Origin: Bacteroidota bacterium
Lineage (GTDB): Bacteria > Bacteroidota > Bacteroidia > M30B66
Direction: 5' to 3'
Assembly (NCBI GenBank): GCA_947460255.1
Contig: CANHIS010000012.1
Location: forward strand, 1-63,873
Length of the DNA: 63,873 nucleotides
Part shown: positions 16,990 through 20,497 of the stretch, piece by piece
How the letters are laid out: the number at the start of each line of letters is the position of its first letter
Position numbering within the stretch: the stretch's first letter is position 1
Notes under the pieces: model-generated
The model's database searches: none
Seen by the model: the letters and a program-made list of their open reading frames with translations, nothing else
What the model was told of the DNA's origin: nothing
Translations under genes and position numbers: made by a program

Positions 16990-17048
16990 CTAAAAGTTAT
17001 CACGCAGCTTTTGGTCTTATGTCCATGCAACACAAGACTCATGACACG

Positions 17049-17117
17049 CAGTCCCGGACTTACATTCATTCAGCCCCGGACTTATGACAGGCAGCCCCAG
17101 ACTTAAGTCCGGGGTTA
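17049..17117. repeat. REP-like cluster: three CAGCCCCGGACTTA units and one inverted copy
   Basis: Units lie at 17049-17062, 17071-17084 and 17092-17105, spaced 22 and 21 bases; each is a variant of CAGCCCCGGACTTA. An inverted partial copy (AGTCCGGGGTTA, 17106-17117) directly follows the third, giving the near-palindrome CCCCAGACTTAAGTCCGGGG. The cluster sits between the aldo/keto reductase and the lysyl-oxidase-like gene. Confidence 0.65.
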
Positions 17118-17191: not shown

Positions 17192-19579
17192 TTGAAAACA
17201 TCTCTACTTAAGATTTGTCTGATTTTATTGGGCTTTTCGATGCCTTATTGGGCTTCTGCTCAATGTCCATCTGGAGAGCTTTCCGTTCAGGTAATCATCA
17301 ATCCTGACCAATATCCTCAAGAAACTTCTTGGACTTTGTCATCTGGAAGCACGCAATTGGCTGCAGGAACTTCATCTGGAGCATCCCTTTGTGTTGCGCC
17401 ACAGAACTGCCTTACTTTCCAAATCAACGACTCTGCAGGTGACGGAATCTGCTGCCAATATGGAAACGGTTCCTATTACATCGTGCTTGATGGCGACACA
17501 GTTGCTTTTGGCGGAAACTTCGGCGCTGGACAAACAGTTCAGTTTAATTGCCCTCCGGGACAAGATTGCAACTCTGCCCTCAACGTTATTCCTGGTCAAT
17601 ACTCTGCTCCAGCACGTAATACTTGGTACGAATTTACACCCGATTCAACGGGGATGTATTTCATCTCCACTTGTGGAAACAATACCTGTGATACCAAAAT
17701 CTGGGTGTACGACCATTGCGCAGGATTGCTCGTAACGAACTCAAACGAAGGAACCATTTACTACGACGACAACAGCGGTGGATGCGGTAACCAAGCCCGA
17801 GTAAACGCTTTGATGGAAGCTGGCGTAACTTACTACATCCGCATTGGCGACGTATCTTCAAGCTGTGAAGGAGAAATCAATTGGTCTCTCACTTACAACG
17901 GCCCTGTTGCAGGATGTATGGATCCGACAGCTTGTAACTTCAACCCAATCGCTACGGTTGATGGTGTTTGTTACTACGAAGGAAATCCACTTTGCCCAGA
18001 AGGTCGTCCTGACTTGATCGTGTTAGAAAACACCATCAAAACTTCAATTTATCTTTCAACTATCAATGCATCTAATTGTCAGGTGGTTGAAGGATGTCTA
18101 ACCGGGTTTGGACAACGCGATATCATTCGTTTCACGACGCACATTAAAAACATCGGAACCGCCGATTATTACATCGGTTCTCCTACAGCACAACCAACTC
18201 AGTTTTCTTGGGGCAATTGCCACGGACACTGGCATTACGAAGGTTATGCTGAATACATTATGTACGATCAACAAGGTCAAGCAATTCCGGTTGGTTTCAA
18301 GAACGGTTTCTGCGTACTCGATCTTGAATGCGGAGATGGTGGAAATGCGCAGTATGGTTGCGCCAACATGGGTATTTCCCGTCAATGCGGGGATATTTAT
18401 GGATCTGGTCTCGATTGTCAGTGGATGGACATTACAGAAATCGACACCGGTCGTTATACCATGGTCGTTCGTGTTAACTGGGACAATGCAGCAGATGCGC
18501 TTGGGCGCGTTGAACTTTCCCATGCTAACAACTGGGCGCAGGTTTGCGTTTACCTTGGAAGAGATGCCAATGGAAACCGAACTATTGAGGTGTTAGACGA
18601 TTGCCCAGCATACACTGATTGTGCAGGTGAAGTATTTGGCTCTTCGCAGCTTGATTGTGAAGGAAATTGCGCAGGAACGCGCATCATGGGCGATCTCAAC
18701 GTGAATGGTTATCAAGATATGAACGATTCACATAATTATGTAGATGAAATCTTAGGCAACGACATTCTTCCAACGGCTTGTAACGACATCAATCAAGACA
18801 ACAGAATTACAGTGTACGATGCTGCATTGATTTCGAGCTGTGTAAATTATGGAATAACGCATCAGCATCCAGGCAATACACCACACGACCACTGCAATTT
18901 CCCTGGAGGATCGCTAAACCCTGCAGATACGGTTACTCTTGAAATTATGAATGTTGATTTCAGCGAAAAATTCGTCGACATTGGAATTACCAACCCTTCA
19001 ACTCGTGTTACGGCATACGAATTTGAGCTCAGCGGTGTTCATATTTGGGATGTAGAAAACTTAGCAGATCCTGTTGAATATCCTATCCAGCCTGAGTTTG
19101 TTTTAGGTGGAAACAAAGTGATCGGTATTTCATATCAAGATTCTATGATCCGCAAGTATTACGAACCAACGCCAATTGTTCGTGTGCATTATTACGAGCT
19201 AACAAATGACACCATTTGCATCAAAAAGATTGTAGATGTTGTAAGCGCAATGATGACAACTACAACTACAGTTATCGGCGGAGAATGTTGGGAATATGAT
19301 GTTACAGGAATGATGAATTACGACAAGCAGAATTACTTTGCTTTGATTCCAAATCCGGCTTCAACAGAAGTAAACATCGATTTAAATTTGTTCGAAACAC
19401 TCGACGCTACAGTGAATTTGATGAATGCTCAAGGTCAAGTGATTTTTACAAAACAACTTCAACAAGTTGACAAGGATCGCATCACTTTCCCAACAAGCGA
19501 TCTTGCAAGTGGAATTTACATGGTTAATCTGATTACCGAAAAAGGCTTAATCACTAAGAAGCTAGTGATCAATAACTAA
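17192..19579 (+). CDS. Secreted lysyl-oxidase-like protein with T9SS type A sorting domain
   Basis: 795 residues from a TTG, chosen because it opens a signal peptide (cut after ASA, residue 23). Order of parts: beta-rich domains (about 24-250), a Cys-knot GCMDPTACNFNP motif (about 248), a lysyl-oxidase domain (about 275-460), a dockerin-like pair of calcium loops (GDLNVNGYQDMND at 500; NDINQDNRITVYD), then a T9SS sorting domain (about 715-795, PNPAS to KKLVINN). In the oxidase domain the copper ligands are H344, H346 and H348 (NCHGHWHYEGY). K370 (GFKNGFC) and Y403 (CGDIYGSGLDCQW) align by motif with human LOX K320 and Y355, which form the quinone cofactor. It may oxidise protein lysines or amines outside the cell; activity is inferred. 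Confidence 0.85.
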   Translation: MKTSLLKICLILLGFSMPYWASAQCPSGELSVQVIINPDQYPQETSWTLSSGSTQLAAGTSSGASLCVAPQNCLTFQINDSAGDGICCQYGNGSYYIVLDGDTVAFGGNFGAGQTVQFNCPPGQDCNSALNVIPGQYSAPARNTWYEFTPDSTGMYFISTCGNNTCDTKIWVYDHCAGLLVTNSNEGTIYYDDNSGGCGNQARVNALMEAGVTYYIRIGDVSSSCEGEINWSLTYNGPVAGCMDPTACNFNPIATVDGVCYYEGNPLCPEGRPDLIVLENTIKTSIYLSTINASNCQVVEGCLTGFGQRDIIRFTTHIKNIGTADYYIGSPTAQPTQFSWGNCHGHWHYEGYAEYIMYDQQGQAIPVGFKNGFCVLDLECGDGGNAQYGCANMGISRQCGDIYGSGLDCQWMDITEIDTGRYTMVVRVNWDNAADALGRVELSHANNWAQVCVYLGRDANGNRTIEVLDDCPAYTDCAGEVFGSSQLDCEGNCAGTRIMGDLNVNGYQDMNDSHNYVDEILGNDILPTACNDINQDNRITVYDAALISSCVNYGITHQHPGNTPHDHCNFPGGSLNPADTVTLEIMNVDFSEKFVDIGITNPSTRVTAYEFELSGVHIWDVENLADPVEYPIQPEFVLGGNKVIGISYQDSMIRKYYEPTPIVRVHYYELTNDTICIKKIVDVVSAMMTTTTTVIGGECWEYDVTGMMNYDKQNYFALIPNPASTEVNIDLNLFETLDATVNLMNAQGQVIFTKQLQQVDKDRITFPTSDLASGIYMVNLITEKGLITKKLVINN

Positions 19580-19599: not shown

Positions 19600-19637
19600 A
19601 AGCCCGCAGATGTCAAACATCTGCGGGCTTTTTTATT
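19600..19637 (+). terminator. Rho-independent terminator after the lysyl-oxidase-like gene
   Basis: A perfect 12-bp stem, AGCCCGCAGATG (19601-19612) with CATCTGCGGGCT (19618-19629), with a 5-base loop, followed by a run of T. Flanking A and T runs extend the stem. Confidence 0.9.
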
Positions 19638-19762: not shown

Positions 19763-20497
19763 TTATTGCTTCTTCTTTTTGCTAACCACTTTTCCAAAAG
19801 AAACAGCAAAAAGCTGACTACTATCTGTGGTGAAATTGAGGTCTTGTCCGCTAACATTAATCCCTTGACGTGCATTGGCCTTCAAGAAATCCATGAGATA
19901 ATACTTAACGCGGATATAGCTTCCTCTACCAAAATTTAGTTCAACAAAAACACTTGGATTAAATCCGTTGAGGCGACTTGAGAACCATTCAGAAGTTTTG
20001 TTTTGCTTGTCTCCCCTGCCCTCTCCAACAAAAACCTTTTGTTTGAAGTGAAACATGTACTCTGCTTCTCCGCCCAAGGCAAAATAAGACTTCTTGCCCA
20101 TGTTGCCGATTTTGAAAGCCAACGGCACTGAAATGCTGTATGCACGATGCTTTACACGAATTGTATCGTTCAAATTATTAATCATTCCAATATTCCTAAG
20201 TCCTAAGCCTGTGTACATTCCAAATCCGCTAGAGAAATTGTAGTGTAATTGCTGAGTAAAATGAAAAAATGCCGAAAAACGTGGAACAGGCGAAGCCGCT
20301 TTGTCAGAGATTAAAATTTGGTCTCCTCCAAGTGGGTTGGGCGCATAGATTTTGGCGTTCCCAAGATTTCCCATGGATAGGATAAACTCTGAAGCAGTGG
20401 CCATATAGCTCTTTTTGTATTCCGTTTTTTCCTCTCCAACTTGAGCAAAAAGTCCGATGTTTAAAAGAATAGCAAGTGTGGTAAGTTTGATTTTCAT
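19763..20497 (-). CDS. Outer-membrane beta-barrel protein (PorT-like fold)
   Basis: 244 residues with a signal peptide (MKIKLTTLAILLNIGLFAQ). The mature part alternates amphipathic strands typical of the eight-strand barrels of Bacteroidota (FSSGFGMYTGLGLRN, AYSISVPLAFKIGN, YFALGGEAEYMFHFK, SVFVELNFGRGSYIRVKYYL) and ends near a final aromatic strand (LFAVSFGKVV) before a basic tail. Substrate or partner is unknown. It follows kbl by 16 bases and probably shares its transcript, with no obvious functional tie. Confidence 0.65.
   Translation of the reverse strand: MKIKLTTLAILLNIGLFAQVGEEKTEYKKSYMATASEFILSMGNLGNAKIYAPNPLGGDQILISDKAASPVPRFSAFFHFTQQLHYNFSSGFGMYTGLGLRNIGMINNLNDTIRVKHRAYSISVPLAFKIGNMGKKSYFALGGEAEYMFHFKQKVFVGEGRGDKQNKTSEWFSSRLNGFNPSVFVELNFGRGSYIRVKYYLMDFLKANARQGINVSGQDLNFTTDSSQLFAVSFGKVVSKKKKQ

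Follow-up and report, generated by a model that had tools for sequence, protein, structure and literature searches.

The gene and its product

The window, a stretch of 63,873 nucleotides from the genome of an uncultivated Bacteroidota bacterium, contains a complete open reading frame (ORF) whose product is a genuine member of the lysyl oxidase (LOX) family (Table 1). The ORF opens with TTG, and an in-frame ATG is absent between this codon and the preceding stop. When the whole window is translated in all six frames, the motif CHxHxH occurs only here. The gene is solitary: the nearest ORF upstream, aldo/keto reductase-like, ends some 200 bases away, and a comparison of homologue loci found no operon or conserved neighbour partner of LOX across lineages beyond the ordinary synteny of close relatives. 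Contamination or eukaryotic DNA was considered as the source of the gene and rejected, because genomes from three genera of the bacterial family share the gene order around LOX.

Two features of the surroundings deserve mention in their own right. The intergenic region upstream of the gene (17048-17117) holds imperfect repeats of approximately GCAGYCCCRGACTTA. On the other side, a convergent ORF encoding a secreted protein (19763-20497, minus strand) adjoins LOX and is kept beside it in eight loci of the family, some of which represent the same genomes twice; its product is possibly an outer-membrane barrel.

Table 1. Features of the LOX gene, its product and its 3' flank (positions in the window)
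Feature	Residues	Positions	Strand	Basis
Lysyl oxidase with predicted T9SS export, complete ORF, TTG start	795 aa	17192..19579	+	ORF list, Pfam, NCBIfam
Signal-peptide-like N terminus, cleavage likely after ASA	1-23	17192..17260	+	Sequence; hydrophobic helix 2-20 in model
N-terminal Cys-containing beta-sandwich, no Pfam family	24-120	17261..17551	+	Pfam scan, homologues, model
Second beta-sandwich with Cys motif GCMDPTACNFNP, conserved in family, no Pfam family	121-270	17552..18001	+	Homologues, model
Lysyl oxidase catalytic domain	271-471	18002..18604	+	Pfam (305-450); LOXL2 alignment; Foldseek
Copper triad H344-x-H346-x-H348 in NCHGHWH	344-348	18221..18235	+	93/93 homologues
LTQ lysine K370 in GFKNGFC (= LOXL2 K653, LOX K320)	370	18299..18301	+	93/93 homologues; LOXL2 alignment
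LTQ tyrosine Y403 in CGDIYGSGLDCQW (= LOXL2 Y689, LOX Y355)	403	18398..18400	+	93/93 homologues
Dockerin-like pair of calcium loops	498-556	18683..18859	+	Loop spacing; homologues; Pfam Dockerin_1 below cut-off
Beta-sandwich resembling cohesin/FN3 module	570-705	18899..19306	+	Model strands; 2w1n among Foldseek matches of full-length model
Type A T9SS C-terminal sorting domain	719-794	19346..19573	+	PF18962, TIGR04183; 46/53 homologues
Intrinsic-terminator-like hairpin GCCCGCAGATGT-caa-ACATCTGCGGGC and T run, after LOX stop		19602..19635	+	Direct reading of sequence

The protein is modular, and its layout along residues 1-795 is common to nearly all of 93 non-redundant homologues. A Sec signal peptide is suggested by the typical sequence and by the helix at residues 2-20 of the model. 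A Pfam scan of residues 24-270 matched no family; stretches similar to the first of the two beta-sandwiches in this region occur on Vibrio and Persicobacter replicons. Behind the catalytic domain, the calcium-loop positions 501/503/505/512 and 532/534/536/543 follow the canonical dockerin spacing. The profile for dockerin type I (PF00404, Dockerin_1) scores 12 bits against a cut-off of 22.9, which is below threshold despite the canonical loops, so that "dockerin-like", the term chosen in an earlier sequence-only reading of this DNA, is a description of the right strength.

Family membership and cofactor residues

Sequence and predicted structure agree in placing residues 271-471 in the LOX family. 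The Pfam scan matched PF01186 (Lysyl_oxidase) over residues 305-450 with 111 bits (E 6.6e-32), and since the cut-off is 20.4, the match lies far beyond chance. Among structures in the PDB, the sole relative that sequence search retrieved for the catalytic region is human LOXL2 (5ZE3), at E 1.3e-20 with the single protein as query and at 2e-34 with the family profile. AlphaFold, given alignments of homologues, produced models with a mean pLDDT of 87 and a pTM of 0.67 for the full-length protein, and 89.2 and 0.83 for the catalytic domain. Both models retrieved the two 5ZE3 chains as their top Foldseek matches; the domain model superposes on them with E 1.2e-14 and 1.7e-14 (the latter at an rmsd of 3.3 A), TM scores of 0.67-0.69 by query length and rmsd values of 3.3-3.7 A. 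Of the checks that had been proposed, the profile search bears out the LOX assignment and the structural overlay bears out the fold. Neither copper amine oxidases of the TPQ type nor LodA-type lysine oxidases appeared in the Pfam and NCBIfam scans at E <= 1.

The catalytic residues had been named from the letters of the sequence, and that assignment stands in full. The positions given for the ORF are exact, as are the residue numbers, including those of the three copper histidines, and K370 and Y403, 33 residues apart, align with the residues that form the lysine tyrosylquinone (LTQ) of LOXL2. All five positions are invariant among the 93 Bacteroidota homologues. A long distance between K370 and Y403 in a model had been put forward as grounds for rejecting the assignment. 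This distance is not diagnostic and is unsafe as a refutation, because the LTQ lysine and tyrosine lie 16.6 A apart in the LOXL2 precursor crystal structure and yet LTQ forms (PMC9180022, PMC9694262).

The resemblance to LOXL2 extends to the cysteines of its disulfides. LOXL2 contains the pairs C573-C625, C579-C695, C657-C673, C663-C685 and C732-C746 (PMC9180022). In the alignment, which covers 172 residues at 32.6% identity, C296, C302, C343, C374, C380, C390, C399 and C409 occupy the first eight LOXL2 cysteine positions (C573, C579, C625, C657, C663, C673, C685 and C695), so that all eight comparable cysteines are shared. Seven of them are invariant among the homologues, and C380 is present in 91 of 93. 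C452 and C471, beyond the end of the LOXL2 alignment, are likely the equivalents of its last pair (C732-C746).

The two proteins differ elsewhere. In place of the N-terminal SRCR domains of LOXL2, the window protein has unannotated beta-sandwiches, and it carries additional dockerin-like, beta-sandwich and T9SS modules. Furthermore, G341 and F369 stand where LOXL2 has H623 and H652, so that both accessory histidines are absent. The LOXL2 mutants H623Q and H652Q keep 21% and 39% of kcat/Km, respectively (PMC9694262). By analogy with these impaired mutants, the activity of the window protein may be reduced, but not necessarily abolished.

Relatives within and beyond the phylum

Loci encoding relatives were collected by scanning GTDB genome contigs with the patterns [NV]CH[GN]H[WTS]HY and [AVI]G[FH]KNGFC, which yielded 370 stretches. 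The 80 best of the 370 were retained, and almost all of these 80 lie in records titled Bacteroidota (Flavobacteriales, Saprospiraceae and others; mostly metagenome-assembled genomes, MAGs). Because the patterns defined the scan, each locus has one pattern motif by construction. Y403, however, is in neither pattern and is still invariant, and the members from the own family, found by HMM and hence free of pattern bias, keep all five residues too. The multi-domain form of LOX with predicted T9SS export is widespread in aquatic Bacteroidota, and a member is encoded by the cultured Phaeodactylibacter luteus KCTC 42180 (locus L095). Of the ten genomes of the order that were compared (own included), all from one family, nine carry LOX and one (G006) does not. 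In an even sample of the phylum, LOX is found in 4 of 395 genomes, own included, and two of these four have a different, cysteine-poor LOX. The family is also carried by MAG records (L029, L035, L038, L053 and others) whose titles name "Chitinophaga pinensis" or "Chryseobacterium gleum"; these species titles look unreliable.

A second LOX of this genome lies on contig C3 (59385-59843; L002:616-2955) and is a protein of 779 residues with the same architecture. This paralogue has the motifs GHKNGFC and CYDVYG, keeps the same catalytic residues and retains the histidine before the LTQ lysine; in a tree of 38 rows it branches as a separate clade within the family. Its conservation bears on whether the LOX domain might be catalytically silent, with fold and motifs kept as a binding or structural module. 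Loss of the two accessory histidines would fit such a role, but the three copper ligands are invariant, together with K370 and Y403, in 93 homologues of several lineages, Y403 even outside the search patterns, and the paralogue keeps the same residues, all of which makes a silent domain very unlikely.

Prokaryotic LOX proteins as such are not new. Grau-Bove et al. reported LOX with conserved copper and LTQ residues in Bacteroidetes in 2015 (PMC4448552), and the existence of the family in this phylum has therefore been public since then. Their survey describes most prokaryotic LOX as single-domain proteins; the bacterial LOX described there share family and phylum with the window protein, and its accessible sections mention neither T9SS export nor the conserved multi-domain architecture. 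No precedent for a T9SS-exported LOX was found in the open-licence literature, where a text search returned a single unrelated review, and an earlier mention elsewhere is possible. The multi-domain subfamily with the T9SS tail therefore appears undescribed so far. The one characterised archaeal enzyme, HTU-LOX of Haloterrigena turkmenica, likewise has the copper and LTQ residues; refolded with copper, it shows activity, and it is sensitive to 3-aminopropionitrile (PMC6452851). By its description, however, it is set apart from the modular, T9SS-exported build of the window protein.

The LOX proteins of Gemmatirosa and Streptomyces clavuligerus (L127, L128) keep the copper triad and the LTQ lysine and tyrosine. 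A second, cysteine-poor LOX type was also observed in other Bacteroidota families (L016, L017), again with the copper histidines, lysine and tyrosine kept. All four are without most of the conserved cysteines and are 20-34% identical to the window domain. The 38-row tree separates these four sequences from a group of LOXL2 and the T9SS type, with weak support (89/75) and long branches. An origin of animal LOX from the T9SS-type subfamily was considered on this basis; with that support, those branches and a small outgroup sample, the case is too weak to claim. The subfamily, which is large and conserved in its modular build and combines cysteines of the animal type with predicted surface export, bears on the origin of the enzyme that cross-links animal connective tissue.

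Predicted export, probable activity and candidate substrates

Export by the type IX secretion system (T9SS) is suggested by the C terminus. The tail matches PF18962 with 52.7 bits at residues 720-793 and TIGR04183 with 49.6 bits, and a recognised T9SS tail is present in 46 of 53 homologues scanned. The genome encodes the PorU sortase (NF033707, 1343 bits on contig C53), and its cargo proteins with type A tails number at least 142. The type A sorting domain and the presence of a T9SS had both been noted by the sequence-only reading; the sorting domain is confirmed, and PorU fits a T9SS.

The reading we favour, with a probability of about 0.6, is that the protein is a surface amine oxidase of the LOX family, dependent on copper and LTQ, exported by the T9SS and acting on extracellular lysines. 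The signal peptide would take the protein into the periplasm and presumably be cleaved; there, the protein would fold with the conserved LOX disulfides, copper would be loaded at H344/H346/H348, and, as in other members of the family, a copper-driven reaction would make LTQ from K370 and Y403. The type IX system would then export the protein, with PorU removing the tail, and the mature protein would stay on, or leave, the cell surface. There, the epsilon-amino groups of accessible lysines, and probably primary amines of other kinds, would be oxidised to aldehydes with release of ammonia and H2O2, and the aldehydes would cross-link or modify extracellular protein.

That protein lysine rather than small amines is oxidised is suggested by analogy with the family. 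An active secreted amine oxidase could instead serve nutrient acquisition or produce H2O2 from small primary amines, without modifying protein. HTU-LOX accepts a wide range of amines, for example taurine, glycine, cadaverine and some antibiotics (PMC6452851), and across lineages no substrate-like neighbour gene recurs beside LOX. Nonetheless, the HTU-LOX data all come from another, simpler subfamily, and the large conserved beta-sandwich and dockerin-like modules better fit binding to a surface or polymer; oxidation of small amines is accordingly judged somewhat unlikely. If LOX cross-links or modifies extracellular protein, as the favoured reading proposes, bacteria would gain a further means of building or altering a matrix, one that is oxidative and works through aldehydes. 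The function of bacterial LOX has been a standing question since 2015, and the T9SS subfamily makes it testable in the cultured P. luteus.

Animal LOX acts on collagen, and PF01391 was searched for that reason. In the own genome, 56 PF01391 matches are spread over at least nine ORFs, and the LOX protein might cross-link such collagen-like (Gly-X-Y) surface proteins of the bacterium, as its animal relatives do collagen. Outside the order, 19 of 50 LOX-positive genomes encode collagen-like proteins over the cut-off, against 60 of 395 genomes of the phylum sample (Fisher p 0.0003), two sets that differ in taxonomy and completeness. Bacterial collagen-like proteins were also raised by Grau-Bove et al. 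in a discussion of bacterial LOX function (PMC4448552). However, the 3893 Gly-X-Y triplets of six LOX-positive genomes (882 of them from the own genome) contain no lysine at all, whereas six of nine LOX-negative genomes do have lysine in such stretches (290 in 2262). Moreover, about half of the LOX-positive genomes are without a collagen-like protein, and the LOX-negative G006 of the same family has many. Lysine-free repeats and patchy co-occurrence therefore disfavour collagen-like proteins as the LOX substrate, unless flanking domains are the target, and render this role highly improbable. The repeat ORFs of the own genome (at least nine, of Gly-X-Y or Gly-Ser/Thr type) include L116-L122 on contigs C195, C160, C27, C106, C81, C11 and C45; some are adjacent and alike.

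The lysine content of T9SS cargo was then compared, in an analysis devised after the collagen repeats had been seen. Cargo was taken as the sequence before the tail, picked by tail score. In a first sample of best tail matches, median cargo lysine was 1.85% in LOX-positive and 3.27% in LOX-negative genomes (p 0.0003). At the genome level (10 vs 10 genomes with four to seven cargo proteins each, L209-L316, overlapping the first sample in genomes), the medians of genome means were 1.66% and 3.21% (p 0.0017, kinship ignored), the LOX-positive genomes being mostly MAGs with larger T9SS cargo sets. Lysine in other ORFs is equal (6.97% vs 7.08%), and GC is similar. Among the 20 residues, none shifts more in cargo than lysine (0.47-fold), and arginine drops less (0.72-fold). 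We offer as an exploratory hypothesis, confounded by phylogeny and lifestyle, that T9SS cargo contains roughly half as much lysine in LOX-positive as in LOX-negative genomes. The further proposal that LOX-bearing Bacteroidota oxidise lysines of their own surface and have purged lysine from T9SS cargo, leaving few as cross-link sites or none as self-protection, is doubtful; if true, a bacterial enzyme that modifies protein outside the cell would have left its imprint across the proteome. Within the family, cargo lysine is 3.9% in the LOX-negative G006 vs 2.2% and 1.2% in two LOX-positive relatives.
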